Of a stretch of 25,737 nucleotides of DNA, positions 3,954 through 24,894 are shown piece by piece (the stretch's first letter is position 1; each line of letters starts with the position of its first letter). The notes under the pieces are model-generated. The model saw nothing but the letters and a program-made list of their open reading frames with translations. It was not told where the DNA came from and made no database searches. Position numbers and translations under genes: made by a program. Source of the stretch: a virus; IMG/VR virus record IMGVR_UViG_3300009431_000124, positions 1-25,737 of that record; one strand, 5' to 3'.

Positions 3954-4017
3954 CGTTCAGTCTCCCTGCGGCCGGGGCTCCCGCCCCGGCCCGCGTCGTT
4001 TCCGTTATCGTTCGCCA

Positions 4018-4046
4018 GGTCCCTGGTCCCGGGTCCCTGGTCCCTG
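4018..4046. repeat. GGTCCCT heptamer array
   Basis: Four units between the decoration-like gene and the capsid stop codon, the only such array in the structural module. Confidence 0.8.
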
Positions 4047-4049
4047 CCG

Positions 4050-6560
4050 TCAGGCCCCGGAGTTGCGGTACAGGCCGCGGTAGTCGGCCGCCTTGGCCGC
4101 CACCACGTGCTTGACCTTGAACTTCCGGGTGTCGGTGTCGAAGCCGCCTTCCTGGCTCAGCTCCGGCCCGTTCATCCCTTCCAGGAAGCCCACGACGATC
4201 GTCGGGACCTGCAGCGGGTCGGCCGCCAGGTACCACTGCCCGGTGTCGTCCGCATCCAGCAGCGGGTGGCTGACGTGTTCCAGCCGGCCCTGCCAGATGT
4301 TCTTCTCGTGCCCGCGGCTGTCGGCGGGGTTGACCTCGCTGTTCAGCAGCGTCTGGGTCGTGCCCCAGAGGGCCTCGGGGGTGATGATCGTCGCCGGTCG
4401 GCTCAGGACGTACGCCGCGCTGCCGAGCCCCTGCTGGATCGCCATGGCGGCCCGGCCGGCGTTCAGCGTGGTGATCGTCGGCGCTCCGCCGCTGGCGGCG
4501 TCGTTGCCGTGGGTGGCCGCGTGGAACAGTGCGACGCTGTCGGCCAGTGCGGCGTTGGCCGTCAGGATCGCGAAGGCGACGATGTCCTCGGCCCGTCGCC
4601 CCGCGGCGCCCTGGGCGGCGATCAGGTCGTTGAAGGCCCCGAGATCGTCGTTGACGATCGTTTCCCACGTCAGGGCGAAGATCACGCCCTTCTTCGCCAG
4701 CGTCCAGGTCTCCTGGTTCTCGCTGAGCGTCCCGTAGGTGTACTCGCTGCCTTCGGTCACCGTCGCGAGGTTGGGCATCTCACTGAGGCTCAGGAGCTTC
4801 TGCTCCTTGAAGTCCGGCGCCGTGACGCGCTTGCAGAACTTCGGCCACTGCGGCGGGATCTCCGCGTATCGCGTGGCCATCTGTTTGCCCGACGCGGCGG
4901 CCAGCAGGTACGGGAAGTCCGACGTGCTGTGAACGCCGGCGGCCAGGGGCACGCGCGGGCAGTTGACGAACGCCCGCTCGGCGATCTGCGCCCGGCTCAG
5001 TCCGCTCACGTCGACGCCGCAGGCCCGCAGGTACATCTCCGCCATCTGGAACAGCGGCTTGCCGGCGAACTCCTTCGCTCGCCCGTGCGCCTCCCGCTCC
5101 TTGCCCAGCCGCAGGCCCAGTTGCGGATCCCGCTCGGTGTCGACCAGCCGCGCGCCCATGCGGATCGCGACGGCGTCGACTATCGCGGGCCCGAGGCTCT
5201 CGCGGTTGCGGTCCGCTCCGGCCTCGACGCTCTCGCCGCCGAGCGACACCGGCTTCTCCGCGGCCGCCAGCTTTTCCAGGGCCGCCCCGTTGACCGCCTC
5301 GGCCGTGTGGCCGCCGTCGGTCATCTTGGCCACCCAGTCCGCGTCGAACCCGCACCGTGCCGCCGTGTTGCGGATGTGCGCCACGCGCTTCCGCTCCTCG
5401 GCCACGGCCAGCCGGGCGATCGCCCCGTCGTCGGCCGCGTTGTCTTCGACAACCGGCTCCGGCTCGGGGGCGGGAGCAGGTGCCGCCGTCTTCGCGTCGG
5501 CGAGGGCGTCGAACATTGCCTTCTCGGCCTCGCTCAGCGCCGCGACCTGCTCCTGGGCTTCCTCGTCGGTCGAGTTCGGATCGAGCCCGAGCGACTCCAG
5601 GTACTGTCGTTGCATCTTGTTCATGAGTCTCGCTCCTTCGTGGATTCCTGCCGCGACTCCGTTCGCGGCGCCGAGTGATCGTTGTGACAGCGGCACCCGC
5701 CGAGCTTGTGCTCGCGCCGTCCCGCCGGTTCCGTTCTGCATCTCCGCCACGACCTCGTCGAGGGACCGGATCCCGTCGACCAGGCCGAGCTGTTGCGCGT
5801 GCACCCCCACGTGGACCCGCCCGTCGGCCAGTTTTTCGACCCGTTGCCGGTCCCATCCCCGCCCCCGGGCGACCGCGTCGACGAACGTCTCGGCGAGCTG
5901 GTCGACCGTCCGCTGAAATTCCTTGATCTGCGAGGACGTGACTTCCGCTCCCGCGACCCCGTCGCCCTTGTGTTCGCCGGCCTTGATGACGTGGACCTTG
6001 ATGCCGCGGTCCTCGGCCATCTTCGACAGGTCGTCGACGACCAGGTACACGCCAATGGATCCCACCATCGCGTCGACGTCGGCGTAGATCGCGTCGGCCT
6101 GGCTGGCCGCGCAGTACGCCCCGCTCGCGCCCAGGTCCGAGATGTAGGCCACGACGCGCTTCGACTGCCGCGCCTTGTAGATCGCGTCGGCCAGGTCGCT
6201 CACGCCCGCGACAGTCCCGCCCGGCGAGTCGATCCGCAGCAGGATGCTCTTGACCTTGCGGTCCTTCGTCGCCGCCTGGATCTGCGCGGCCATGTCCTGC
6301 ATCGTGGCCCCGCCGAAGATCATCTGCCAGATCGTGGGGTGTTTGGTCAGCACGCCGGCGATGTCGATCACCGCCACGCCGCGATTGACCGCGTACTTCT
6401 CCGGCGCCGAGTCCCGCCCGGCCGGCCCCAGTTTGGCCAGCAGGCCGTCCCCGAGCGAAATCTGCTGTTCCGTCGCTGCCGAGTGCAGGTTCGCCAGGGC
6501 CGTCCGTAGATGTGGCTCGGACGCCGCCCAGAACACGTCGCTGGCTTTGAGTTTCGGCAT
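4050..6560 (-). CDS. Prohead protease-scaffold-major capsid fusion protein
   Basis: 836 residues; the ATG at 6560 has GAGGAG upstream. Residues 60-280 are an S49/SppA-like protease (lambda gpC type): IDSPGGTVAG (110-119), nucleophile Ser146 in LGASGAYC, and probable general base Lys198 in AGEHKGDG. Residues about 313-430 are an acidic, Ala/Pro/Glu-rich helical scaffold-like section. Residues 540-836 are a Mu-gpT-like capsid domain (AAGRRAEDIVAFAILTANAA, LFHAATHGN, PLQVPTIVVGFLEGM). Fused protease-capsid proteins of this kind are known in some phages. Met313 (5624) has its own strong ribosome site, so a free scaffold-capsid of 524 residues is likely made in excess. A heptamer array follows the stop. 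Confidence 0.9.
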   Translation of the reverse strand: MPKLKASDVFWAASEPHLRTALANLHSAATEQQISLGDGLLAKLGPAGRDSAPEKYAVNRGVAVIDIAGVLTKHPTIWQMIFGGATMQDMAAQIQAATKDRKVKSILLRIDSPGGTVAGVSDLADAIYKARQSKRVVAYISDLGASGAYCAASQADAIYADVDAMVGSIGVYLVVDDLSKMAEDRGIKVHVIKAGEHKGDGVAGAEVTSSQIKEFQRTVDQLAETFVDAVARGRGWDRQRVEKLADGRVHVGVHAQQLGLVDGIRSLDEVVAEMQNGTGGTARAQARRVPLSQRSLGAANGVAAGIHEGARLMNKMQRQYLESLGLDPNSTDEEAQEQVAALSEAEKAMFDALADAKTAAPAPAPEPEPVVEDNAADDGAIARLAVAEERKRVAHIRNTAARCGFDADWVAKMTDGGHTAEAVNGAALEKLAAAEKPVSLGGESVEAGADRNRESLGPAIVDAVAIRMGARLVDTERDPQLGLRLGKEREAHGRAKEFAGKPLFQMAEMYLRACGVDVSGLSRAQIAERAFVNCPRVPLAAGVHSTSDFPYLLAAASGKQMATRYAEIPPQWPKFCKRVTAPDFKEQKLLSLSEMPNLATVTEGSEYTYGTLSENQETWTLAKKGVIFALTWETIVNDDLGAFNDLIAAQGAAGRRAEDIVAFAILTANAALADSVALFHAATHGNDAASGGAPTITTLNAGRAAMAIQQGLGSAAYVLSRPATIITPEALWGTTQTLLNSEVNPADSRGHEKNIWQGRLEHVSHPLLDADDTGQWYLAADPLQVPTIVVGFLEGMNGPELSQEGGFDTDTRKFKVKHVVAAKAADYRGLYRNSGA
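5633..5638 (-). promoter_or_regulatory. Internal ribosome binding site for scaffold-capsid product
   Basis: AAGGAG eight bases before the in-frame ATG at 5624 (MNKMQRQYLESLGLDPNSTD). It parallels the lambda C/Nu3 arrangement, in which the scaffold starts inside the protease gene, but here the inner product would also include the capsid protein. Confidence 0.75.
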
Positions 6561-6563
6561 CGG

Positions 6564-8159
6564 TCAGCTCTCCTCGTCCTCGTCGTCCCCGCCGGCAGGC
6601 ACGGCCACGGCCGCCTGCTCGCCCTTCATCCACTTGGGCGCCACGTGACGGCCCTCCGCGTATTCCTTCTCGTCCCCTCGCTGGTCCAGTGCCTCCCGCC
6701 AGTCCCCGCCAACGGTATTCTTGACTTCCCGCAGGTTGGTCACCCCGTCTTCCAGCGCCATCCGCGTCGCGGTCGCCTGGTTCTTGGGATCGACCCACGG
6801 CTTGGGCGGCCCCTGCCAGTCGTCGTCGAGGTACGCCATCATGAGGTCCGTCGACTCGAAGAACCCCGGCGCCTCGACCAGCCCCTGCAGGACGGCCCGC
6901 ACCTTGAACGCCTCGCGGATCGGCCGGCACCACAGGTTGACCATGAGGTTGTGCACGATCGGGTCGCACTGCCGGTCCACTTCCAGGGCCCCCTGCCGCT
7001 GGCTGGAAAAGTTGCCTTCGTGGAAGCTCCGCGTCAGGTGCGCCCCGTCGAGCCCCCCGCCGGCCGCGATCTCATCGGCGGTCCGCTTCATGTACGGGTC
7101 GTACTGCGAGCCGGGCCGCTGCGGGTTGAGGACCTCCAGGTACCGGCCGTGCCCCAGGTCCGGGTTCATCCCCGGCTCGACGATGATCTCCGCGTTGCCC
7201 TTCGCGTCGGTGCGGTCGTCGCCGCTCGGCGCTGCCCCGCCCCAGTTCCCGCCGCTGCCGCTGCCGCCGTACCACTGGTCGTACCGCACCTGCACGCCGA
7301 TGCAGGCCTCCATGCGTTTCGCGAACGCCTCGGCCATGCGGTATCCCCGGCGCTGGTAGATGTCCTCGAGGATGGCGTGCATCCACGTCGCCCCGTGCGT
7401 CGCCCGGACCCGGTCCTGGCGGAACACGTGCATCACGCGGGACGCGTCGATCCTCGTCGACCCGGCGTTGTACTGGTCGTACGGGTGATCGCCGCTGTAG
7501 ACCCAGTAGGCCACGGGCGCCCCGTCGGCGTCGATCTCGACGCCGCCGTATACGCGGTTGCCCGTGTCGCGGTTTTCGGTGATCGTCCAGTCGAGCTGCT
7601 CGGGCTCGAACATCTGCACGGCCAGGCCCACCGCGTTCGCCCGCTGCACCGTCACCAGCACGCCGAACGCCTCGCCGACGATGGCCAGCTCCTGCACCAC
7701 CAGGCCGTCCATCTCGGCCTTGCACTTCGTCCGCTCGACGTCGCACAGTCGCGGCCGCCTCGCCCAGTAGTCGTACAGCCGGTCGATCCGCCGGTTGAAC
7801 GTCCGGAACCGGTCGTCCTCTTTGCCCGTCTGCGGGTCCCGCGCCGCCGATCGCGGTGTGATCCCGATGCCCACCACGTGCCGCCGGTATCCATCGGCCA
7901 GGCTCTTCGCCGCCCAGTCGTCGCGGTAGGTCATTCGCGCCCGGGCGTTCAGCGTGGCGCTGTCGTCGACCAGGGCGTTGGGCCCCACCGTCGTCGACGT
8001 CCAGGCGTTGGTCAGCCGGTTCTTGCTCGCCGCGCTGTAGGTCGCGTTCCGGAAATTCTGCTGGATGAACTCCGCCCGCGCCCGCGCGGCGGCCCGCCGC
8101 AGTCCCCATCCGGGGAAGGCGGTCGTGATCGCTTTGTCGAGGAGTCGTCCCAGTCCCAT
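6564..8159 (-). CDS. Portal protein, lambda gpB family
   Basis: 531 residues. It forms the dodecameric ring at the capsid vertex through which DNA enters. The sequence starts MGLGRLLDKAITTAFPGWGL. Recognisable lambda B-type stretches are NATYSAASKNRLTNAW, TVGPNALVDDS, YRRHVVGIGITPRS, VFRQDRVRATHGATWMHAIL and LTRSFHEGNFSSQRQGAL. A run of Gly/Ser (about 300) breaks the middle and the C-terminal tail is acidic (DDEDEES). The length matches the family. It lies nine bases after gpW and just before the protease-capsid gene. Confidence 0.93.
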   Translation of the reverse strand: MGLGRLLDKAITTAFPGWGLRRAAARARAEFIQQNFRNATYSAASKNRLTNAWTSTTVGPNALVDDSATLNARARMTYRDDWAAKSLADGYRRHVVGIGITPRSAARDPQTGKEDDRFRTFNRRIDRLYDYWARRPRLCDVERTKCKAEMDGLVVQELAIVGEAFGVLVTVQRANAVGLAVQMFEPEQLDWTITENRDTGNRVYGGVEIDADGAPVAYWVYSGDHPYDQYNAGSTRIDASRVMHVFRQDRVRATHGATWMHAILEDIYQRRGYRMAEAFAKRMEACIGVQVRYDQWYGGSGSGGNWGGAAPSGDDRTDAKGNAEIIVEPGMNPDLGHGRYLEVLNPQRPGSQYDPYMKRTADEIAAGGGLDGAHLTRSFHEGNFSSQRQGALEVDRQCDPIVHNLMVNLWCRPIREAFKVRAVLQGLVEAPGFFESTDLMMAYLDDDWQGPPKPWVDPKNQATATRMALEDGVTNLREVKNTVGGDWREALDQRGDEKEYAEGRHVAPKWMKGEQAAVAVPAGGDDEDEES

Positions 8160-8514: not shown

Positions 8515-8712
8515 CTAAACACAGACAGATTCACAAGATGTGCACAATTTGCACCGAACATACCGGATTCGCCCCACGGTTTTATAGGTGCTCCACTCGC
8601 CCACGACCCCGCAATTGCTGCATCGCTTGTTCGCCAGGATAATCGCGACCGCCGCCTTGTCGGGCACGCTGCCGTCGTCGGGAACCCGCTTCTTGAGGTC
8701 GTTCAGATCCAC
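8515..8712 (-). CDS. Small zinc-ribbon protein between terminase and gpW
   Basis: 65 residues from the GTG at 8712, overlapping the terminase stop by ten bases. The N-terminus is MDLNDLKKRVPDDGSVPD. Two Cys pairs, KRCSNCGVV and RCKLCTSCESVC, form a probable zinc ribbon. It takes a position that has no counterpart in the lambda order, between the GpA and gpW equivalents. The pattern is complete and the frame is tightly coupled, so I believe it is real, but its function is unknown. Confidence 0.65.
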   Translation of the reverse strand: MDLNDLKKRVPDDGSVPDKAAVAIILANKRCSNCGVVGEWSTYKTVGRIRYVRCKLCTSCESVCV

Positions 8713-10670
8713 GCTTCGCCGGGTCCTTTCTGCAGCCAGTTCTCATCGGTCTTCACCGGCGCCGGCGCCGGCGGCGGGTTGTGCGGGTCCGGGATCATCC
8801 TCACGTTGAGCAGTTCCCCGGCCACGCAGTTTCCGACCTCGCAGTCCCAGTAGTGGTTCGCCCGCCCCTGGCTCTTCGGCAGCCAGACCTTCTTCGGCCG
8901 CCGCGCCGATCGCCCGCCCCGCCCGCGCTTGCGATCGACGATCTTGTGTTCGCTGCAGAGCTGGCGGATGTACTCGTCCTGGACGTCGTCGGGCAGGTGC
9001 AGGTAGCCCGGCCCCGCCTCGTCCTGTTTCAGCCGCAGCGCCAGCCAGTCTTTCCAGTACTCCGTGTCCACCAGCAGCAGCGGGATGTCGTGGCTGTACC
9101 GCTTGCCCGTGCGTGGATCCTTCCGCCGCGGGCTGGCCGACACGATCGGCCCGCTCGTGCTTCGCCCCTTGGTCGGCCGCAGGTCGATGTCGCGCCACGC
9201 GTCGACCAGGCCGTACACGTACCCGGCCCGGTCGCCCGAGTCGATCATCGTCAGCCGGATCCCCATCACCCGCCGCTCGTCCGTGAATCGCGCCGTCAGC
9301 AGGTACCGGTGCAGTTCGGCCTCGCTGGCGATCTGCCTCGCGTCCAGCACGAAGCTCTCCAGCCCGAACGCCCACCCGCGGGCCGACACGTAGAAGCCCG
9401 TCCGCTGCACGTCGACGCACGCCGTGACGACCTGCACCCTTTCCGGCAGCCAGCCCGCGACCTGCCCCGTCCCCGGGTCGTACTTCGCCCGCTTGTACGT
9501 CCCGCGGTGTTTCCGGACGGACTCTTCCTCCGTGGACGCTTCCTTCTCTTCCCAGAACTCGCCCAGCTCGTTGTTGATGAAGTCCTGCAGCCGGCTCAGG
9601 CTGCCCGACTCCTTCGCCCGCAGCCAGGACCCCGCCAGTTGGCTGAGCGTCGTGAACGGCGAGTAGACCGCGTTGACGTGAAAGCCGGCGTGGTTCCCGC
9701 GCCGCTTCGCCTCGCCGGCGACACGCCCGTCCTTCTCAACCCGCTCCCCGTCCCGGGCCCACACCCCCAGGCGGACGGCCCTGTTCCGCTGGGCGTCGTT
9801 CCAGAGTTCCTTGCAGTGCAGGCACTCGTAGCGTGCGAGCTTGCGTCCTTCCACTTCGCTGGCCGCTGCGCTGTGCCCGTCCTTGTGATGCGGCCAGCGG
9901 ACCTGCGACCAGACCAGCGTCTGGTATTCTCCGCACGTCGGGCACGGCACCCAGAACCGCCGCTGGTCCGACTCTTCCCAGCTCTGGCAGATCAGGTCGT
10001 CCCGCGTCGTCGGGCTCGATACGCGGACGCTCTTGGCGCCGGTCGTGTTGCGGAACGTCCGCAGCCGCTTGTCGCCCAGGCTGATCGGGTCGGCGTCGCG
10101 GCCGACGTACGGCGGGAACTTCCCGACCTCGTCGTAGTCGACCTCGCGCAGGGCCCGGCGGCTCAGCGATGCCGCCGAGTTCGACCACCCGAAGTACAGG
10201 TTGCCCGTCCGGAAGTAGTAGCCCTCCTTGGTCAGGCTGGCGACGCCGTCGACGGCCGCCGCCAGCAGCGGCTCGCAGTTGCTCACGATCTCCCGCAGCG
10301 TCGTGCCCGCGACTTCCCGCGCGTCCGGTTCGGTCGGCATCACCAGCAGCCGCGGGCCGGGCCGCTGGACCATGTCCGCGCACAGCCCGCCGTACAGGAA
10401 CAGCGTCTTGCCGAGCTGCGTCCCGAACAGCACCGTCAGGGCCTCGTAGCTCGGATCGTCCCGCACGTCGAACATCCCCCGCATGTACGGCGTGATCGAC
10501 AGGTCCACCGGTCCGGGGATCGCCACGTCGCGGCCGGACAGTTCGATGTGCTTCTCGACGAACTCGGCCGTCCCCAGCAGCTCCGGCATCGCCCAGGCTT
10601 CCATTTCCTCGGGCAGCCAGTCGATGACCTCGACACCCTCGATCTCGATCGTGGCCAGGCCGCTCGTCAT
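8703..10670 (-). CDS. Terminase large subunit, lambda GpA family
   Basis: The packaging motor: ATP-driven translocation and cutting of phage DNA. It is 655 residues from the ATG at 10670, coupled to the small subunit. The Walker-A-like loop is FGTQLGKT (82-89), the Walker-B-like segment VDYDEVGKF (177-185), and SSPTTRDD (218-225) is a likely motif III. A zinc ribbon is formed by CPTCGEY (C243, C246) and YECLHCKELW (C283, C286), as in GpA homologues. The C-terminal nuclease part starts around VTACVDVQRTGFYVSARGW. The length is normal. A small zinc gene overlaps its end. Confidence 0.95.
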   Translation of the reverse strand: MTSGLATIEIEGVEVIDWLPEEMEAWAMPELLGTAEFVEKHIELSGRDVAIPGPVDLSITPYMRGMFDVRDDPSYEALTVLFGTQLGKTLFLYGGLCADMVQRPGPRLLVMPTEPDAREVAGTTLREIVSNCEPLLAAAVDGVASLTKEGYYFRTGNLYFGWSNSAASLSRRALREVDYDEVGKFPPYVGRDADPISLGDKRLRTFRNTTGAKSVRVSSPTTRDDLICQSWEESDQRRFWVPCPTCGEYQTLVWSQVRWPHHKDGHSAAASEVEGRKLARYECLHCKELWNDAQRNRAVRLGVWARDGERVEKDGRVAGEAKRRGNHAGFHVNAVYSPFTTLSQLAGSWLRAKESGSLSRLQDFINNELGEFWEEKEASTEEESVRKHRGTYKRAKYDPGTGQVAGWLPERVQVVTACVDVQRTGFYVSARGWAFGLESFVLDARQIASEAELHRYLLTARFTDERRVMGIRLTMIDSGDRAGYVYGLVDAWRDIDLRPTKGRSTSGPIVSASPRRKDPRTGKRYSHDIPLLLVDTEYWKDWLALRLKQDEAGPGYLHLPDDVQDEYIRQLCSEHKIVDRKRGRGGRSARRPKKVWLPKSQGRANHYWDCEVGNCVAGELLNVRMIPDPHNPPPAPAPVKTDENWLQKGPGEAWI

Positions 10671-11422
10671 TTCCCGTCCTCCGGCACGATCACCGCCGCC
10701 TGTTCCGGCGTCAGTTGCAGGGCCACCTGCCCGCCGGCCAGCCGCTCGAGCATCGTGTGCACGTCCGCGTCGATCGCCGCCGCCTGCCCCTTGTCCAGCC
10801 CGTACTGGGGCAGTTTTCGCACCATCCCCAGCAGCATGCTCTTGAGCACCTGGCAGCGTGCGATCCACCCGGCCACAACGGCGTTCCGGGGCAGCAGTTC
10901 CCCCTTCATCTCCGCCAGCTCAATCTCGGCCCGTTCCGCCTGGGCCAGCTCCCGCCGCTGTCGCCCGCGGTTGGCCTCTTCCCGTGCCCGGCGAACGTCC
11001 GCCGTCAGTTCGCGCATCCGCCACTGAACCACGGCCGCCAGGTCGTAGCTCCCGTCGGCGTTTCGCGGGCAGCCCTTCTTCTCCCAGGCCCCCACCGTCG
11101 GCCGGGTCGTCGCGAGTACCCCGATCGCCACGTTCTGCGGCACCCGGTGGATGTCCAGGCTCCCGCCCCGGATCCACCGCCCCACAGCCGCCAGGTCGTA
11201 CGTGAGGTCCTCGTTGCGGGGGCACCCCTTCTTCGCCCACTTCGTCACCGCCGGCCCCGAGACCCCGAAGATCCGCCCCACCTGCACCCCCGTCAGGGCG
11301 CGAACATCCATCTCACGGCGCTTCCGCCCGGGCTTTGCCTTCTCCCGGGCCTTCTTCGCCCTCTTCCGGACCGTCTTCGCCCGGCTGCCGCCCGTCGCCT
11401 TGCCCTTCTTCACCTTCGCCAT
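10667..11422 (-). CDS. Terminase small subunit, Nu1-like, tandem HTH
   Basis: 251 residues. It recognises phage DNA and loads the large terminase for packaging. A Lys-rich N-terminus (MAKVKKGKATGG) is followed by two copies of a winged-HTH unit: residues 43-82 (VGRIFGVSGPAVTKWAKKG, YDLAAVGRW) and 96-134 (GVLATTRPTVGAWEKKG, YDLAAVVQW), both with KKGCPRN. Residues 138-190 form a helical region, with a C-terminal tail ending PEDGK. Lambda Nu1 has one such unit, so the duplication is notable. The start lacks an obvious ribosome site. The stop overlaps the large-subunit ATG (ATGA), which supports the pair. Confidence 0.8.
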   Translation of the reverse strand: MAKVKKGKATGGSRAKTVRKRAKKAREKAKPGRKRREMDVRALTGVQVGRIFGVSGPAVTKWAKKGCPRNEDLTYDLAAVGRWIRGGSLDIHRVPQNVAIGVLATTRPTVGAWEKKGCPRNADGSYDLAAVVQWRMRELTADVRRAREEANRGRQRRELAQAERAEIELAEMKGELLPRNAVVAGWIARCQVLKSMLLGMVRKLPQYGLDKGQAAAIDADVHTMLERLAGGQVALQLTPEQAAVIVPEDGK

Positions 11423-14801: not shown

Positions 14802-16144
14802 TCGCCCGCCCCCTTCCTGCCTTCCGCCATGACCTTGACGGCCCTGGCGAGTTGATCGTTGAGCCAGCTCGTCAGGACGGCCTCGGGCTTTTTGACCGCT
14901 TTTCGCTTGCCGTGCTCGGCGGCGCGGAGCTGGTCCCGGAGGCTCCGGGCCTTTCCGATGGCCGCTTCGCAGAAGGCGAGCTTCGCCCCCTCGTCGAGCC
15001 CGACCGCGTCGGCCCGCTGCCAGATCCTCGCGTAGACGGGCAGGTTCTCCTTGAACAGCCTCACGGCGTTGGGCTCGCTGTAGCCGAACCCCAGCGCCCG
15101 GCACAGGACGGTCGCGAAGTCCAGGCCGCCGGCGTCTTCGCGAATCGACGCCCAGCAGCACGGATACTCCTCGTCCTTTTCGACCCGCCCCCAGACGACC
15201 GGGTCGGCAACGACCTCGCAGATCGCGCCGCCCCCCTCGCCCCCCCCGCCATCCGGAGGGACCGGGGGAGAATCGGCGCCCTGGGGCCCGTCATCTCCCT
15301 CCGGTTCCCTTCCGGCCTGGGGGCGGAGCGGATCGTCGCCGGCCGGCGGTGTCCCGTCGCCGCCGGGCGTTTCGGTTGCCCCTTCGTTCGAGTCACAGTT
15401 ACCGTTCCTGTCCGCCGTTGGTGTTTCTGTAGCGGTTCCGCTTCCGCCGTCCGCAAGGACGGCGGGTTCCCCGTTAAGGTTAGCCGTAGCGGGAACCGTA
15501 TCCGATTCTCCGCCGCCCCCCCCCGGCCGGGGTCCGTCGCGACTCCCCGGCGTGTATTGGGGTCGCGTCGGCTTGCGATCAGGCTCGTCGGGGGTCTCCG
15601 GTTTTGCCGCCGGGTCGGATGCTTGGGTGTCGGTCTCGCTGTGGGGCCTGCCGGCCTCTGAGAGGGCCTGTGCGGCAAGCTCCAGGCGGAAGGCGGTCTC
15701 GTAGTCCTCTCGGACGACGCGACCGATCTCGGGGCGTCTGAGCACGCGTAGTGCCCACGACACCTCGGCGGGTGTGACACCGATGGTCTCGGCTATTGTT
15801 TTCGGGGCGGCCGGTCGCCCCCTGTGATCGACGAGATACCCTCGCATGAAGGTCCGGTCGCCCGCGTAGCCGCACAGCAGCAGGTACATGCCGTACAGCG
15901 ACGCGCCGCCTGCCCTCAGCACCGCGCGTTTCTTTGCTTCGATGTCTCCTCTGTGAATCCCGACGGACGGCCGGGAGTTAATATAGACCTTGAAGTAGAG
16001 CAAGGGGGTCTTGTCCCCCTGTCGGTATTTGACGTCGGGCTCGAGCTGGTCCCAGTCGGCGATGCGATAGACGTACCGCGTCCTCGCGGGTCCGCTCGTC
16101 TCAGACGTCCGTGTCGTGCTGGTCACTGATTCTCTCGCCGTCAT
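14798..16144 (-). CDS. Replication-like HTH protein with long disordered linker
   Basis: 448 residues from the ATG at 16144, which lies in the 51-bp repeat (no strong ribosome site, so a later start is possible). Residues 22-165 form an N-terminal domain: YVYRIADWDQLEPDVKY, LLYFKVYINSRPSVGIHRGD, and an HTH PKTIAETIGVTPAEVSWALR (114-133). Residues about 168-307 are Pro/Gly/Thr/Asp-rich and surely disordered. Residues 308-448 form a helical C-terminal domain (FATVLCRALGFGYSEPNAV, VLTSWLNDQLARAVKVM). The architecture resembles phage replication initiators or organisers, which is inference. The stop overlaps the next ATG (ATGA). Confidence 0.65.
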   Translation of the reverse strand: MTARESVTSTTRTSETSGPARTRYVYRIADWDQLEPDVKYRQGDKTPLLYFKVYINSRPSVGIHRGDIEAKKRAVLRAGGASLYGMYLLLCGYAGDRTFMRGYLVDHRGRPAAPKTIAETIGVTPAEVSWALRVLRRPEIGRVVREDYETAFRLELAAQALSEAGRPHSETDTQASDPAAKPETPDEPDRKPTRPQYTPGSRDGPRPGGGGGESDTVPATANLNGEPAVLADGGSGTATETPTADRNGNCDSNEGATETPGGDGTPPAGDDPLRPQAGREPEGDDGPQGADSPPVPPDGGGGEGGGAICEVVADPVVWGRVEKDEEYPCCWASIREDAGGLDFATVLCRALGFGYSEPNAVRLFKENLPVYARIWQRADAVGLDEGAKLAFCEAAIGKARSLRDQLRAAEHGKRKAVKKPEAVLTSWLNDQLARAVKVMAEGRKGAGE

Positions 16145-16191
16145 CCCTGACGGGTTCGATTTCCGATTTCCGATTTCCGATTGAACGGCGG
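16141..16191. repeat. 51-bp ATTTCCG element, copy 1
   Basis: Same order as copy 2, with three tandem ATTTCCG units. The minus-strand end GTCAGGGATGA supplies the start codon used here for the replication-like gene. Confidence 0.85.
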
Positions 16192-16510: not shown

Positions 16511-16561
16511 TCATCCCTGACGGGTTCGATTTCCGATTTCCGATTTTCCATTGAACGGCGG
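16511..16561. repeat. 51-bp ATTTCCG element, copy 2
   Basis: TCATCCCTGACGGGTTCGAT then tandem ATTTCCG and TTGAACGGCGG. It is nearly identical to 16141-16191 (two differences). On the minus strand it ends GGGATGA and creates an eight-residue frame (MSSKENAE) whose TGA overlaps the ATG of the 16491 gene. Confidence 0.85.
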
Positions 16562-16578: not shown

Positions 16579-16668
16579 TCACAGGGCTATCTTCAACTTC
16601 ATACCGCAGATGTCGCACCGTCCCCCTGGTCCCAAGTCCCTGGTCCCTTGGTCCCTGCCGTCCATCAT
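16579..16668 (-). CDS. Candidate 29-residue CxxC microprotein split by a repeat
   Basis: ATG-ATG at 16668/16665 overlaps the Gp37/Gp68 stop as ATGA. The frame reads MMDG, then a heptamer array (RDQGTRDLGPGG), then RCDICGMKLKIAL and TGA. The RCDICGMKL knuckle looks like a zinc-binding motif. I infer that a tiny zinc protein existed and the repeat expanded into its 5' part without closing the frame. It may not be expressed. Confidence 0.35.
   Translation of the reverse strand: MMDGRDQGTRDLGPGGRCDICGMKLKIAL
16621..16657. repeat. GGTCCCT heptamer array
   Basis: Five or so units (CTGGTCCCAAGTCCCTGGTC region) immediately after the Gp37/Gp68 stop codon. Confidence 0.8.
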
Positions 16669-17825
16669 TCGCTCTCTCCCGTCTTCACCTTCGGATTCGT
16701 CGCGGCAAGCCCTGGTCCCAAGTCCCTGGTCCCTGGTCCCTGCCGTATCGGCATTTCATCGTGCAGTCGTCCGTCCAGGAGGCGTCCGGCGCGTTTCTTG
16801 CCGACCAGGAAAGAACACCGGCCGGGTTCCCATTCGTGATAGGTCTCGTCCGCCCACAGGCGACGGCGCACGTTCTCGGGTATGGCGTCGCGAACCTCGG
16901 TCGTCACGTGTTCCTGTGGCAGCCACTCGCCCCATTGCTTGAAGAAGAACGCCGCGCCGGCGGCGGCGCACTGGTTGCGGAGGACGCGGGGCCAGTCGGG
17001 GTGCATGGGCCGTGCGTTCGCCCGCGGCCGGGCCGTCTCGCCCCCGCAGATTACCCAGTCGAGGCCTGGGACGGCCGGCACAAGAACAGCACAACCCTTC
17101 GGGGTGGGCCGCGGTCTTCTTAGAGCATCTTGCACGCAGGTATACTTCTCGCCGTTCGGGCCGTGATGGGTGGGCCCGGCGATGTGCCGTAGGTTGACCT
17201 CCCCGAGCATGGGTTCGACGCTCACGTAGCGGACGGCGGCGGGGCATTCCAGCAGGGGCGGGATCCGCTCGTCGGCGCGGGCCTGGTTCTCGGCCGTCAC
17301 GCCGAGCCAGACGTTCGGCAGCGGCCAGGGCAGTTCCTCCAGCCAGCCGGTGTATCCGTACTCGACGACGGCCGCCCCGCGGTTGTCCGCACGTTCGCCC
17401 TGGTCGTCCTCGTCGAAGTACTCCTTCATCCGCCCGGGTCGTTTCGTGAGGACCTGGTACGTGTGGTGCGGCGTGAGGGCCATGACGGCGAACATGCGGT
17501 CGATCTGCTCGAACGGGATGGCCGGGTGGAACAGGTCCGTCCGGGATCCGACGAATACGCGGCGGGGCTTGGTCCAGTGAAGGGGCTTCTGCAGGACGTC
17601 GTCGCCCTGGTAGACGGGGCCGCGGAGAAAGTACGGCGCGGCTTTATCCCATAGGTTTCCGCCTAGGCCGTTCTTCTCCTCCGCCGTCAGACACCGGCAA
17701 CGCTTGCGGAATCGGGTGTCCTCCTCGCGGGCGGCGTAGCAGTTCTCGCAGGCCTCGCTGACTCGCGTGCAGCCGATGTACGGGTTCCACGTCGCATCCG
17801 TCCATTCGATTTTCGATTGGCTCAC
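16665..17825 (-). CDS. Phage Gp37/Gp68 family three-Cys-motif protein (DUF5131)
   Basis: 386 residues from the GTG at 17825 (GTGA overlap with the upstream stop). The N-terminus reads SKIEWTDATWNPYIGCTRVS, giving Cys19, Cys26 and Cys29 (C-x6-C-x2-C-Y), the three-Cys motif of this family. Other family stretches are VFVGSRTDLFHPAIP, TYQVLTKRPGRM, NVWLGVTAENQ, VEPMLGEV and WVICGGETARP. The three cysteines recall radical SAM enzymes, but the reaction is not known to me. The usual partner TcmP is not in this window. The last about 25 residues (QGPGTRDLGPGLAATNPKV and on) are encoded by a heptamer array plus a second dispersed repeat, so the native C-terminus appears replaced. Confidence 0.9.
   Translation of the reverse strand: MSQSKIEWTDATWNPYIGCTRVSEACENCYAAREEDTRFRKRCRCLTAEEKNGLGGNLWDKAAPYFLRGPVYQGDDVLQKPLHWTKPRRVFVGSRTDLFHPAIPFEQIDRMFAVMALTPHHTYQVLTKRPGRMKEYFDEDDQGERADNRGAAVVEYGYTGWLEELPWPLPNVWLGVTAENQARADERIPPLLECPAAVRYVSVEPMLGEVNLRHIAGPTHHGPNGEKYTCVQDALRRPRPTPKGCAVLVPAVPGLDWVICGGETARPRANARPMHPDWPRVLRNQCAAAGAAFFFKQWGEWLPQEHVTTEVRDAIPENVRRRLWADETYHEWEPGRCSFLVGKKRAGRLLDGRLHDEMPIRQGPGTRDLGPGLAATNPKVKTGESE
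16679..16710. repeat. Dispersed 32-bp repeat, copy B
   Basis: CCGTCTTCACCTTCGGATTC followed by GTCGCGGCAAGC. It matches 28 of 32 positions of copy A at 13828-13859, and each lies at the 3' end of a gene. Confidence 0.65.
16711..16742. repeat. GGTCCCT heptamer array in Gp37/Gp68 gene 3' end
   Basis: Four units in tandem, translated as QGPGTRDLGPG. It adjoins the TTCGTCGCGGC repeat copy at 16679-16710. Confidence 0.8.
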
Positions 17826-19932: not shown

Positions 19933-20112
19933 TCAGATTCCGATCGCGGCTCGTGCCCGCGGGCGGATCCGCCGGTACCACGGCCGCCGGCCGGCGGCGA
20001 GTCGCCGGTGCAGCCTCTTGATGGCGGCCTTGTCGTTGGCGATCACGCCGCGCAGCAGGCAGTTCTCCGTCTCGAGCCTCGTGATGGTCCGGTTGAGTTC
20101 CGTTCTGCTCAT
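19933..20112 (-). CDS. Small basic protein, coiled-coil N-terminus
   Basis: 59 residues from the ATG at 20112, beginning MSRTELNRTITRLETENCLL and ending RARAAIGI. The first 35 residues have hydrophobic spacing typical of a short coiled coil (L6, I10, L13, C18/L19, V23); the rest is Arg-rich. It is flanked on both sides by heptamer arrays, which is odd for such a small gene. No normal Shine-Dalgarno is present; only repeat-derived AGGGAC precedes the ATG. It lies just upstream of the ParB-like gene. I do not recognise it. Confidence 0.5.
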   Translation of the reverse strand: MSRTELNRTITRLETENCLLRGVIANDKAAIKRLHRRLAAGRRPWYRRIRPRARAAIGI

Positions 20113-20161
20113 GTCCCTGGTCCCAAGTCCCTGGTCCCAAGTCCCTGGTCCCTTGGTCCCT
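20113..20161. repeat. GGTCCCT heptamer array
   Basis: About 49 bases of CTGGTCCC/AAGTCCC units. It fills the gap between the stop at 20160 and the ATG at 20112, so the AGGGAC on the coding strand directly abuts the next start codon. Confidence 0.85.
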
Positions 20162-20645
20162 ATCCGTTGACGAACCTTCCTTCATCTTCGGCGGCCAGCA
20201 GTGCCGCCCGTCCTTCGTCGGTGATCTCGTAGACGTCCGCGGGCGAGCCGCTGGAGGTTTTCCGCCTGCCGGCGACGCGGATGAGCGTGCCGTGGCGGAC
20301 GTCCTTGGGCGTCTTCATCCGGTGGATGGGCCCGCAGGCGGACTTTTCCGGCAGTTCGATCCGGCCGCAGATCTCTTCGCGGAGGCTCGGCCCGTGGTCG
20401 GCCAGGTCGCGGAGGATCTCCCGTGCCCGCCCGCGGGCCCTGCCGGCGGCCCGCCCGGCGGCGGCGCGGCTGGTCTCGCTGGCGTCTGTGGCGGGCAGTT
20501 CATCGGGCAGGGGCGAGGCGGATTTCCGATTGGCAGTTTTCGATTGCCGATTGGGCGCGGGCGGCGGCTTGTACGATTCGTACGATTCCCGCCCGTCGCC
20601 GCTGCTGCTCGTGCGGAACAGTCGTGTCTGTTTCTGCCCGGCCAT
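20160..20645 (-). CDS. Winged-helix DNA-binding protein with repeat-encoded segment
   Basis: 161 residues from the ATG at 20645. The frame is open upstream, but this ATG starts the compact product and is preceded by AGGGACC from a single heptamer unit. Residues about 74-150 have a winged-helix layout: helices REILRDLADHG and LREEICGRI, then a wing RVAGRRKTSSGSPADVYEIT and a final helix DEGRAALLA. It may regulate transcription. Residues 30-43 (PNRQSKTANRKSAS) are encoded by an ATTTCCG-type repeat (20521-20555) embedded in frame, and a heptamer array begins at the stop. The N-terminal 60 residues are otherwise low-complexity. Confidence 0.6.
   Translation of the reverse strand: MAGQKQTRLFRTSSSGDGRESYESYKPPPAPNRQSKTANRKSASPLPDELPATDASETSRAAAGRAAGRARGRAREILRDLADHGPSLREEICGRIELPEKSACGPIHRMKTPKDVRHGTLIRVAGRRKTSSGSPADVYEITDEGRAALLAAEDEGRFVNG
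20521..20555. repeat. ATTTCCG-type repeat inside winged-helix gene
   Basis: GATTTCCGATTGGCAGTTTT followed by CGATTGCCGATTGGG. It is related to the two 51-bp elements at 16141 and 16511 and is translated in frame. Confidence 0.6.
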
Positions 20646-21956: not shown

Positions 21957-21975
21957 CCGTGGGCCCGGCGTCCTT

Positions 21976-22010
21976 CCCCTGGTCCCGAGTCCCTGGTCCC
22001 AGGTCCCTTG
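21976..22010. repeat. GGTCCCT heptamer array
   Basis: About four units with linker variation (CTGGTCCCGAGTCCCTGGTCC region). It lies in the short gap between the stop at 22014 and the start at 21956. Confidence 0.8.
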
Positions 22011-22013
22011 CCG

Positions 22014-22319
22014 TCACCGCGTGGCGGCCTTGATTCTCTCGTAGCGTGCCTCGCCGACGTGCACCGTCCGCGTTCGCTTGTGGATCACGATCGGCTTGCC
22101 CTGCTGCCGCAGTTCGCCGAGGACCTCCATGAGGCTGTCGAGGTCGATCTTCGTCCCGCCGGCCCTGTGGACCTTGAGTCCGTAGTGTGCGGCCAGCACG
22201 GGCCACAGCAGCGAGAAGGTGCCCTGCCCCATGTCGATGGCGTCGGCGGCGGTTCCGACCCTGGCCAGCAGCGGCCATCGCTGTGCAACCTTCTTCGCCT
22301 TGTCCGGTGTCGCGATCAT
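22014..22319 (-). CDS. Hypothetical small DNA-binding-like protein
   Basis: 101 residues; the ATG at 22319 has GGAGG seven bases upstream. The sequence begins MIATPDKAKKVAQRWPLLAR and has a central segment SLLWPVLAAHYGLKVHRAGGTKIDLDSLMEVL resembling a compact helical fold. The second half has a beta-like stretch KPIVIHKRTRTVHVGE. It could be a small HTH or DNA-binding protein, but I cannot name the family. A heptamer array follows its stop. Confidence 0.6.
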   Translation of the reverse strand: MIATPDKAKKVAQRWPLLARVGTAADAIDMGQGTFSLLWPVLAAHYGLKVHRAGGTKIDLDSLMEVLGELRQQGKPIVIHKRTRTVHVGEARYERIKAATR

Positions 22320-22376
22320 GTTGCGGCCTCCGGCCGCGGTCTCTCGGTAGTCGGTAGTCAGTCGTCTGTTGCCGTT

Positions 22377-22445
22377 TCCCGGTCCCTGGTCCCTGGTCTC
22401 TGGTCCCTGGTCTCTCGTCCCTGGTCCCTTAGTCCCGAATCCCTA
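22377..22445. repeat. Long GGTCCCT heptamer array
   Basis: The longest array in the window, about 69 bases with some nine 7-base units, including variants GGTCTCT and CGTCCCT. It lies between the 22443 stop and the start of the next gene and overlaps the stop codon. Confidence 0.85.
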
Positions 22446-22799
22446 GTTCTCCGCGTGCATCCCGTCGATGGTCCTTCGCCAGGTGACGTAGTTGAGGCGG
22501 CGAAGGTCGCGGAGCCTCACGAGCAGTTCGACGTCGCCCGTGAGGCCCTTGACGTTCGGCCGGTCCAGCAGCGGCGCCAGGTCGAGGTCTCGCGCGTCGG
22601 TGGGCGGCAGGTGCCCTCGTCCGGTCATCCGCCAGGCCATGCGGAGGCACTTGCCGAACCGCCGCAGTGCCCGGGCGAATCGGCCGAGGCGGTTGACTCG
22701 CCGGATGCCCCGTCCGAGCCATCCGAGCCGTCGCGCCCCGTCGGCGGCGTGGGGGTGCGTCTCCGCCGCGTCCCACTGCATGTCCGTCAGTGCTTCCAT
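22443..22799 (-). CDS. Hypothetical protein, Arg-rich helical
   Basis: 118 residues from the ATG at 22799, preferred because GGAGG (22806-22810) lies six bases upstream. An alternative ATG at 22829 adds ten residues but lacks a good site. Residues 25-55 are strongly basic and helical (RGIRRVNRLGRFARALRRFG), while the C-terminal half is Leu/Arg-rich (DVELLVRLRDLRRLNYV). No known motif is visible. The TAG stop runs directly into a long heptamer array, part of which may have replaced the original 3' end. Confidence 0.6.
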   Translation of the reverse strand: MEALTDMQWDAAETHPHAADGARRLGWLGRGIRRVNRLGRFARALRRFGKCLRMAWRMTGRGHLPPTDARDLDLAPLLDRPNVKGLTGDVELLVRLRDLRRLNYVTWRRTIDGMHAEN

Positions 22800-22967: not shown

Positions 22968-23292
22968 GGCTCCCCGGCCCTGGCCCCGCGTCCGCTACCT
23001 GTATCCAGGGTGGAACCTTGGACTTCACGGACTCGCGGGGCGGTGCTGGCGATGCTTCGTTCTCGGGCGTCCGACGCGCCAGGCGGTCTCTATGCCGCCT
23101 GGCCCTGTCGTCGCCGACGCGGCCGCTGCTGTAGGCCTCATGCGTGCCTCAGTTCCGACCAGTCGCCACGAGCATCCCAGCCCGGCTGTCGACGACAGGC
23201 CCGGTAGGCCGAAGCCACTTTCCACGGCCCGGCAGCCATCCCCGGGTCGAGGCGAGCCCGTCGCCGACATCTGCAGATCTTCACTTTTCAAC
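22968..23292 (-). other. Gene-poor stretch downstream of tmRNA
   Basis: About 325 bases without a convincing gene. A minus-strand frame of up to 88 residues (23025-23291, TTG start, or ATG 21 bases in) is open but has no ribosome site and biased, low-information composition. The clearest element is a perfect 9-bp hairpin, GCCAGGCGG/CCGCCTGGC with an 8-base loop, at 23078-23103. It lacks a T run, so it is not a classical terminator. The tmRNA 3' end abuts this region, so processing or termination signals may be here. Confidence 0.4.
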
Positions 23293-23620
23293 TGGAGCCG
23301 GCGGGAATCGAACCCGCGTGCCGAGATGGTTCGCGGCCCGGCTCACGTGCGTCCTGCTGTTTCGGCCGTAGCAGGTTGCCGTCCATCGGGGGCCCGAACT
23401 GGATTCGGGCTTCGCATCCACCAGCCGGTTTGCTCGAACCGGCAAAGCCGCCGATGTGGGGGCGAGTCGCCTATCGGCGTCGGCGGTCGCCCTGCGGCCG
23501 TCTAGGCCGCCTGTCGCATGGGAGCGGCAGTTCAGTCGTGGCAGGATTTCTATCGCGGCCCACTGCCATCCGCGGCACGTGCCTGAGCCGTTCCGCATCC
23601 GGTCGATGCCGATCGGCCCC
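23293..23620 (-). ncRNA. ssrA: tmRNA (transfer-messenger RNA)
   Basis: Rescues ribosomes stalled on broken mRNA by acting as tRNA-Ala and then as a short message. The 5' end reads GGGGCCGATCGGCATCGAC, and GGGGCCG pairs with the 3' CGGCTCC to form the acceptor stem. The 3' part has the T arm CGGG-TTCGATT-CCCG and the upstream tmRNA-like CACGTGAGCC. A pseudoknot (about 23541-23580: CGCGG/CCGCG nested with TGGCAG/CTGCCA) precedes by ten bases a short reading frame, 23502-23528, GCC through TAG, giving the tag AAPMRQAA. Further perfect hairpins at 23424-23443 and 23392-23410 fit later stems. CCA is not encoded. It is 328 bases, a normal size. Frame choice for the tag is inferred. Confidence 0.9.
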
Positions 23621-23884: not shown

Positions 23885-23957
23885 TAGCGGCGGAGGGATT
23901 CGAACCCTCGACCTCCGGGTTATGGGCCCGGTGAGATAGCCACTTCTCCACGCCGCG
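23885..23957 (-). tRNA. tRNA-Met(CAU), initiator type
   Basis: A full cloverleaf of 73 bases. The acceptor stem pairs positions 2-7 (GCGGCG/CGCCGC) with a C1 x U72 mismatch. The D stem is GAGA/TCTC giving A11:U24, the anticodon stem is CCGGG/CCCGG with loop CCCATAA, the variable loop is AGGTC, and the T arm is GAGGG-TTCGAAT-CCCTC. An unpaired 1:72, a purine 11:pyrimidine 24 and three consecutive G:C pairs at 29-31/39-41 are the identity marks of bacterial initiator tRNA. Position 33 is C rather than the near-universal U. The 3' CCA is not encoded. It lies between the lysozyme-like gene and the tmRNA, on the same strand. Confidence 0.9.
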
Positions 23958-23995
23958 GTATGCGGGCCCCGAGCATCGCCCGGACGTCGGTGGGG

Positions 23996-24568
23996 TCAGA
24001 CGCCCTGGTCCCTGGTCCCGGGTCCCTGGTCCCTCGCGGCCCGCAGGGCCGCGCTCACCTTCCGCCAGTACTCGAGCGTCCCGGCCTCCAGGTGTCCGTC
24101 GGGTCCGCCGTTGTGCATTCGTGCCCGCTGCTGGTCTGTGGCGGCGCCGTATCGTCGCCAGTAGGCTTTGATGACGGTTTCGCAGTGGGGGCGGCTCCAG
24201 ACCAGGCTCAGGTAGTCCCACCGAACCCCGGCGGTCTGGCAGCCGTCCGTCCAGTACGCCATCCCGATCTGGTACGGGCCTCGTGAGGCCCCGCCGTCCC
24301 CCACCGCGTGATCGTTCCCGCCGGATTCGACCTGGCGGATCGCGTCGAGCAGTTTTCGATGCGGCCCTTCTGCGCCCGGTCGGGCAGTCGCAGCCGCCCC
24401 CGCGGCTGCCCTTGTGTGCCTCGCTGCGGGCGGGGAGGGCGGCGCCGCCTGCAGGTCGTCGGCCTGGACGCACCCGGCGCTGATTTTGTTCCTGTTCACT
24501 GCCCCCTGGCCCCAGGTCCCTGGTCCCCGGTCCCTGCGATCGTGGGCGTATCCGGCGGCCACGATCAC
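23996..24568 (-). CDS. Lysozyme / transglycosylase-like cell-wall hydrolase
   Basis: Likely cleaves peptidoglycan at lysis or entry. From the GTG at 24568 it is 190 residues. The enzymatic part (about 73-175) has IRQVESGGND with Glu81 as probable catalytic acid, then SRGPYQIGMAYW, and near the end RMHNGGPDG, the layout of lysozyme-like/SLT folds; Cys110 and Cys129 could pair. The start is uncertain. The frame upstream of this GTG encodes a convincing signal-anchor (FILAWLIGW running into TSVIVAAGYA) but contains no ATG, GTG or TTG nearby. An ATG at 24590 that overlaps the preceding stop is in another frame, so a frameshift or non-standard start is possible. Heptamer arrays are translated near both ends (DRGPGTWGQG; the last nine residues DQGPGTRDQ before GV). 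Confidence 0.7.
   Translation of the reverse strand: MIVAAGYAHDRRDRGPGTWGQGAVNRNKISAGCVQADDLQAAPPSPPAARHTRAAAGAAATARPGAEGPHRKLLDAIRQVESGGNDHAVGDGGASRGPYQIGMAYWTDGCQTAGVRWDYLSLVWSRPHCETVIKAYWRRYGAATDQQRARMHNGGPDGHLEAGTLEYWRKVSAALRAARDQGPGTRDQGV
24004..24034. repeat. GGTCCCT heptamer array at 3' end of lysozyme-like gene
   Basis: About four 7-base units in the usual orientation. The array encodes the C-terminal residues of the lysozyme-like protein, and its stop codon follows at once. Confidence 0.75.
24501..24537. repeat. GGTCCCT heptamer array inside lysozyme-like gene
   Basis: Imperfect tandem CTGGTCCC units on the plus strand. They are translated on the minus strand as GPGTWGQG between the membrane segment and the catalytic domain. 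Confidence 0.7.
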
Positions 24569-24582
24569 GCTCGTCCATCCGA

Positions 24583-24894
24583 TCAGCCATGCGAGGATGA
24601 AGGCCCGGCCGAGTTTCTCGGTGCCGGCGGCGCCAGTTCCTCGCGAAGCACTGCTTTCAGAAAATCGCGGCCGCAGGCCTGCAGGAGCCTTCCGCCGTCG
24701 TCGATCGCGGCGGCGGCGATCTCCGCCAGGTCGCAGTCCCTCGTGTCGGGGTGCAGTGCCCGCAGCCCCGCCAGCAGCATCGCCGCCCGCCGGCGGAAGG
24801 CCTGCATCTTCCGCGGTCCCCGCGTCCTCGCCACGCCGAACGCCGTGGCGGCGTCTTTGGTCGAGAGCGTCGTCGCCGTCGCCCTTGCCGTCAT
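24583..24894 (-). CDS. Hypothetical basic/helical phage protein
   Basis: 103 residues. The ATG at 24894 has a perfect AGGAGG (24903-24908) eight bases upstream, which fixes the start. The protein is Ala- and Arg-rich with predicted helices (AFRRRAAMLLAGLRAL, LAEIAAAAIDDGGRLLQA) and no signal peptide or recognisable motif. It is the first gene after the terminator and CGCTACA block, so that block probably controls it. Its stop lies within the ATG-bearing sequence ATGGCTGA at the start of the next region, next to the lysozyme-like gene, so it may be co-expressed with the lysis function. I do not recognise the family. Confidence 0.6.
   Translation of the reverse strand: MTARATATTLSTKDAATAFGVARTRGPRKMQAFRRRAAMLLAGLRALHPDTRDCDLAEIAAAAIDDGGRLLQACGRDFLKAVLREELAPPAPRNSAGPSSSHG

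Follow-up and report, generated by a model that had tools for sequence, protein, structure and literature searches.

Genomic context of the tRNA

The DNA analysed here (the window) is the whole of virus record IMGVR_UViG_3300009431_000124, a stretch of 25,737 bases with a G+C content of 68%. Matches to PHROG families identified head genes for the large terminase subunit, the portal, a protease/major head protein and head decoration, and the large terminase subunit shows that the window comes from a tailed phage (Table 1). The tRNA that is the subject of this study lies 38 bases from the end (position 23996) of a lysozyme-like frame located upstream of it, in which the Destabilase match reaches 25.2 bits, below the cut-off of 26.2.

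Table 1. Genes and structured RNAs located in the window
Feature	Positions	Strand	Evidence
Head maturation protease / major head protein	4050..6560	-	phrog_4523, E 5.5e-106
Portal protein	6564..8159	-	phrog_21, E 1.7e-78
Large terminase subunit	8703..10868	-	phrog_15, E 9.7e-140
DUF3800-VIII RNA motif	22980..23044	-	RF03075, 40.5 bits, gathering 40.2
tmRNA (ssrA-like)	23290..23620	-	RF00023; G3:U70 acceptor, A73
Candidate tmRNA tag frame	23502..23528	-	GCC GCT CCC ATG CGA CAG GCG GCC TAG
Initiator-type tRNA-Met(CAU), C33	23885..23957	-	ARAGORN, Rfam RF00005, cloverleaf fold, direct parse
Anticodon loop CCCATAA	23919..23925	-	sequence reading; C33 is loop base 2
Lysozyme-like frame, start not settled	23996..24640	-	weak Pfam PF05497 Destabilase

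The initial annotation had placed the tRNA next to a tmRNA in a phage, and this is borne out both by the terminase, portal and capsid genes and by an RF00023 match on the tRNA's own strand, 264 bases further downstream (45.0 bits against a gathering score of 47, E 2.9e-16, model positions 1-374 of 374). The acceptor of this RNA, GGGGCCG/CGGCUCC, contains the G3:U70 pair of alanine identity, A73 is present, and the candidate tag frame, with an inferred resume codon, would be translated as AAPMRQAA before a stop codon. With these features the tmRNA looks functional. It was not detected at 23290-23620 when ARAGORN was run on the window, and phage tmRNAs that escape the program in this way may be under-counted. 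Among the viral loci carrying C33 described below, a tmRNA was called by ARAGORN at 1 of 107, compared with 5 of the 119 U33 viral loci among the matches listed. A search of 11 sources of other C33 loci gave no tmRNA above gathering, which says little because the sources include L347, which stops short of the tmRNA, and because the window's own tmRNA is itself below gathering. The third structured RNA of the cluster, downstream of the tmRNA, is the DUF3800-VIII motif; no DUF3800 protein was found among the window frames scanned with Pfam.

The window also contains short arrays of the heptamer GGTCCCT/GGGACCA, at positions 4005-4066, 16608-16755, 20099-20174, 21961-22036, 22361-22450, 23994-24041 and 24488-24549. 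They were absent from all loci compared, of which 382 are viral, 22 come from planctomycetes and 105 from other genomes. A direct repeat of 51 bases (96%), with the heptamer CGATTTC inside, is found at 16141-16191 and 16511-16561.

Structure of the tRNA-Met

ARAGORN reported a tRNA-Met(cat) with exactly the boundaries of Table 1, and an Rfam search of the whole window matched RF00005 at the tRNA (59.2 bits, E 1.2e-10). When the gene was parsed directly, the acceptor CGCGGCG/CGCCGCU was seen to combine a C1.U72 mismatch with six Watson-Crick pairs, including G2:C71, C3:G70 and G4:C69. The D stem, GAGA/UCUC, holds A11:U24, the anticodon stem, CCGGG/CCCGG, has three consecutive G:C pairs (GGG/CCC), the T arm reads GAGGG-UUCGAAU-CCCUC, and the gene ends at discriminator A73 with no encoded CCA. 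The cloverleaf is the minimum-energy fold, at -31 kcal/mol. In bacterial initiators, the acceptor pairs G2:C71 and C3:G70 and the pair A11:U24 serve formylation, and all three are found here together with the non-Watson-Crick 1:72 position, the GGG/CCC stem and a CAU anticodon; the earlier assignment as initiator-type, made from the 1:72 mismatch, A11:U24 and the GGG/CCC stem, therefore stands. The last two of these have been described as features of bacterial initiators (PMC4611024).

The loop CCCAUAA corresponds to C32 C33 C34 A35 U36 A37 A38, so that the direct parse agrees with the C33 noted previously and the tRNA departs from the general consensus of U33. The initial annotation had considered that a sequencing error at this base would undo the observation. 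A separately assembled contig, IMGVR_UViG_3300009314_000048 (35,252 bases), covers the whole window with an identical tRNA and shows 2 mismatches over a stretch of 20,868 bases and 5 over one of 5,200 bases, the two aligned stretches overlapping by about 330 bases. Since this near-identical contig has the same base, C33 is real and a sequencing error is ruled out. The full cloverleaf likewise rules out a pseudogene as far as the sequence can tell. In its sequence the tRNA is intact and has the marks that recruit formylation and P-site binding, and the gene is best read as encoding a putative functional initiator whose anticodon loop is altered.

C33 initiators across viruses

We scanned IMG/VR for a pattern made of the initiator anticodon arm, the variable loop and the T loop, with base 33 specified. 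C33 initiator-type tRNAs were found on 107 contigs, in a complete scan, and U33 ones on at least 119 stretches, while the same pattern with A or G at 33 was found on none. By DNA similarity, the C33 loci form 83 clusters when 300 bases are shared, or 90 when 1,000 bases are shared, and the tRNAs themselves are diverse, with 89 distinct sequences among the 105 parsed, of which 100 have well-folded bodies (parsing lost 8 rows near contig ends: 2 viral C33, 3 viral U33 and 3 genome C33). When either C or U was permitted at 33, C33 was present in 8 of the 80 viral rows listed, out of at least 120 stretches, a fraction that may be biased by host DNA at contig ends among the U33 rows.

Cultured phages with C33 include D3, FBPa47, Donnerlittchen, PfAn1 (which has an elongator-like D stem) and Rctr197k. 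The copies read in CcrSC, TinyTim, Elanor, RHph_Y65, PHB04, RiverRider, phi-ST2, 44RR, Goe17, LR756501, NTR1, Alone3, Lak-B1, DSS3_MAL1, pEa_SNUABM_44, pMLP1, MT837581, Y6 and MD-2021a have U33. The resulting 5 of 24 cultured-phage records is not a rate, since the records were picked by similarity to C33 queries. With 107 contigs and several cultured phages, neither a phage-borne initiator tRNA nor C33 within it is the oddity of this particular phage that had been supposed. Our searches of the open-licence literature turned up no description of phage initiators with C33.

Common descent of the C33 viral contigs with the window was rejected, the proteins that they have in common being few and distant, and for this reason C33 is not the mark of a single phage lineage. 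Nine DNA clusters mix C33 and U33. Their tRNAs looked orthologous only between L006/L061/L068 (C33) and L315 (U33); the other mixed clusters were rejected as sister pairs because their common DNA lies elsewhere than the tRNA. In 68 of the 107 loci the C33 tRNA is the sole tRNA, and codon compensation therefore cannot explain the initiator there.

C33 in cellular genomes

The same C33 pattern was found in at least 119 stretches of cellular genomes, including genomes of Weissella, Leuconostoc, Fructobacillus, Erysipelotrichaceae, Phycisphaerae, Patescibacteria and DPANN archaea. The loci from Weissella, Leuconostoc and Fructobacillus include L113, L116, L124, L142, L154, L167 and L184, among others. 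Elongator-type tRNA-Met with C33 was also seen, in the Erysipelotrichaceae/Solobacterium genome loci L170 and L201.

In twelve planctomycete genomes chosen for having C33 and searched whole, the C33 tRNA was the sole initiator-pattern match. Searches of a class or phylum were centred on three genomes also selected for C33 (G006, G165 and G166). Among 150 genomes of the Phycisphaerae, the class of G006, 124 had a match and six had C33 only; all six are adjacent in the kin-ordered list, and two of them (G001 and G004) were already known before the search. Apart from the centre genomes, no C33 was found among the matches listed for Actinomycetes, nor in 147 genomes of Bacteroidota, for which the search covered C33 only and gives no U33 denominator. 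In cells C33 is thus rare and clade-bound (one Phycisphaerae group and relatives of Weissella/Leuconostoc), and within such clades it can belong to the chromosome itself. The comparison of viral initiators (8/80, among the matches listed) with cellular ones (5/229) gave a Fisher p of 0.006, a rough value obtained after dropping the centre G006 and an extra copy in G157 and taking Actinomycetes as 0/106. We read C33 as a recurrent, phage-enriched change and not as a defect. The enrichment is an estimate, since some viral U33 rows may be host sequence and only a few cellular groups were sampled.

In eukaryotic initiators C33 is described as the rule (PMC9023262). The view of U33 as almost invariant, taken in the initial annotation, holds for elongator tRNAs, whereas initiators tolerate C33, in some bacteria as well as in eukaryotes; the present set shows that initiators of bacterial type can depart from U33, a base that had seemed untouchable in them.

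Changes at other loop positions and in elongators

Changes in viral initiator-type tRNAs concentrate in the anticodon loop: against the 107 contigs with U33C, a base other than A38 was found in at least 120 IMG/VR stretches and one other than A37 in 31 (30 parsed, 29 well folded), compared with 6 for U55C. Among the matches listed, 113 of the 120 position-38 variants fold well and the variants fall into 78-86 DNA clusters, with the loops TTCATAC (47), CTCATAT (33), TTCATAT (15), CTCATAC (9) and TTCATAG (7), and two with C33. The position-38 set holds non-initiators as well, the 1:72 mismatch being present in 81 of 113 and the mismatch together with A11:U24 in 45 of 113 among the matches listed. 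In cells, a base other than A38 was found in 1 of 150 Phycisphaerae genomes and in 0 of 116 Actinomycetes genomes. C33 and a changed position 38 occur together more rarely than expected (2/113 versus 8/80 among the matches listed, Fisher p 0.018), as though a single change sufficed or a second could not be borne.

Outside tRNA-Met, C33 is present in 16 of 439 distinct phage tRNA sequences, compared with 1 of 214 in cells. Because phage elongators are also richer in C33, part of the C33 effect is general to phage tRNAs.

Phage C33 in hosts with U33

Pseudomonas phage D3 (AF165214) and its relatives on P. aeruginosa have C33 in their tRNA-Met, while the 5' half of P. aeruginosa tRNA-fMet is printed as ...GGGCTC, which gives U33 (PMC11380944). 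A second case is the Phycisphaerae genome G157, which has a U33 initiator at one place and a C33 copy at another. Terminase, portal and DUF5131 genes lie no further than about 30 kb from the latter, which therefore belongs to a prophage whose host has U33. The initial annotation had proposed a comparison with the initiators of likely hosts; made here for the general case, it shows that in both D3 and the G157 prophage the loop differs from that of the host tRNA. Beside the C33 tRNA of this prophage, at L353 12825-12900 on the minus strand, there is an initiator-bodied tRNA to which ARAGORN assigns the anticodon TTC.

Possible origins of the altered loop

It has long been asked why phages carry tRNAs. 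An initiator on its own is unable to make up for differences in codon usage, which makes initiators with altered loops a clean case for other explanations, foremost among them the protection of initiation against host tRNA-cutting defences. U33 shapes the U-turn required in A-site decoding, and initiator tRNAs bind the P site directly. C33 would be tolerable in an initiator because entry at the P site bypasses the A-site decoding check, where U33 matters. The reading that we tentatively favour is that the window gene is a working phage initiator in which C33 is tolerated and the loop is probably retained for its resistance to host nucleases directed at tRNA-fMet. The phage gene would supply its own working initiator tRNA, and phages would retain copies whose loop is changed at 33, or else at 37 or 38. 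Host nucleases that cut the anticodon loop of tRNA-fMet, such as VapC-like toxins and similar enzymes, would fail to recognise or cleave the phage copy, and initiation would continue once the host tRNA-fMet pool had been destroyed. The nearby tmRNA, by rescuing ribosomes that have stalled, would contribute to the same economy of translation late in infection. It is possible, and we hold this wider claim with more reserve, that many unrelated phages have altered their own initiator at C33, 37 or 38 as alternative escapes from a widespread tRNA-fMet-cutting defence.

The anticodon loop of the free bacterial initiator is described as already unusual at U33 (PMC4611024), the known tRNA-fMet VapCs of several bacteria are reported to cut between the anticodon loop and the stem (PMC8522696, PMC7180214), and anticodon-loop mutations in other phage tRNAs are reported to match changes known to confer VapC insensitivity (van den Berg et al. 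2023, PMC10264068). As expected of a nuclease-evading tRNA, the gene is phage-borne, lying in a virus record with terminase, portal and capsid genes. Against escape as a general explanation, about nine in ten viral initiators have the ordinary loop at 33 among the matches listed, and so do several cultured phages. Shigella phages are reported generally to avoid encoding tRNA-fMet (PMC10264068), and no fMet was found in Shigella phage Sf14 (PMC12482277). Given bacteria whose single initiator carries C33, no reason peculiar to phages is required for it, and the excess of C33 in phage elongators fits relaxed constraint too. With C33, 37 and 38 variants available beside ordinary copies, including D3 with its U33 host, escape by loop change is directly testable.

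The strongest general rival, which we regard as rather unlikely, is that the changes at 33, 37 and 38 simply persist under weak selection on redundant phage tRNAs, initiators being tolerant of C33. C33 in phage elongators speaks for it, the substitution is a transition with no purine found at 33, and the orthologous tRNAs with C33 and U33 show back-and-forth change. However, the same transition is 18 times rarer at U55, an imperfect comparison since U55 may be under stronger folding constraint, and C33 is commoner in viral initiators (8/80, among the matches listed) than in phage elongators (p 0.02). The bodies of the variants at 33 and 38 are nearly all well folded, and the changes in the loop seem to stand in for one another instead of piling up as decay would.

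Inheritance from the host seems less probable still. A phage infecting a C33 bacterium, for example of the Phycisphaerae clade, could have acquired the host initiator: the chromosomal C33 initiators of this clade resemble the window tRNA in C1.U72, in the T loop TTCGAAT and in lacking an encoded CCA, and the twelve planctomycete genomes picked for C33 showed no second match to the initiator pattern. Yet the window tRNA is only 81% identical to those planctomycete tRNAs, about as close as to tRNAs of unrelated phages (82% for D3) or to a chromosomal copy with U33 (80%). In Phycisphaerae the closest terminases identified share 26-36% identity with that of the window, a terminase search gave 0 of 199 planctomycetes at E 1e-60, and the window repeats are absent from the planctomycete loci compared. 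The planctomycete host suggested by the C1.U72 and missing CCA is therefore unsupported by terminases or repeats, and inheritance leaves D3 and the G157 prophage unexplained. It is very improbable that C33 tunes translation by weakening use in elongation or shifting start-codon choice in favour of phage messages: the eukaryotic C33 and the unusual free loop are compatible with it, but nothing we found supports it directly.

Likeness to known tRNAs

The window tRNA has in common with bacterial tRNA-fMet the CAU anticodon, the 1:72 mismatch, A11:U24, the three G:C stem pairs and A37 A38, and differs from it in having C33 instead of U33, C1.U72 instead of C1.A72, no encoded CCA and a phage location. 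Under our preferred reading of nuclease escape, it may be regarded as the initiator variant of a loop-escape idea proposed earlier for other phage tRNAs (van den Berg et al. 2023, PMC10264068). The anticodon-loop change and the proposed benefit are the same; however, the published cases are elongators of mycobacteriophages and enterobacterial phages, whereas ours is an initiator with only putative resistance. Eukaryotic tRNA-iMet likewise has C33 in place of U33 (PMC9023262) and carries A54 and A58, in contrast to the bacterial T loop of the window tRNA, and common ancestry is not implied. The D3 tRNA-Met comes close in its initiator body, C33 and C1.U72. No tmRNA was found in the 3-kb stretch of D3 examined, unlike in the window, and the D3 tRNA encodes CCA, is one of four tRNAs and is 82% identical to that of the window.
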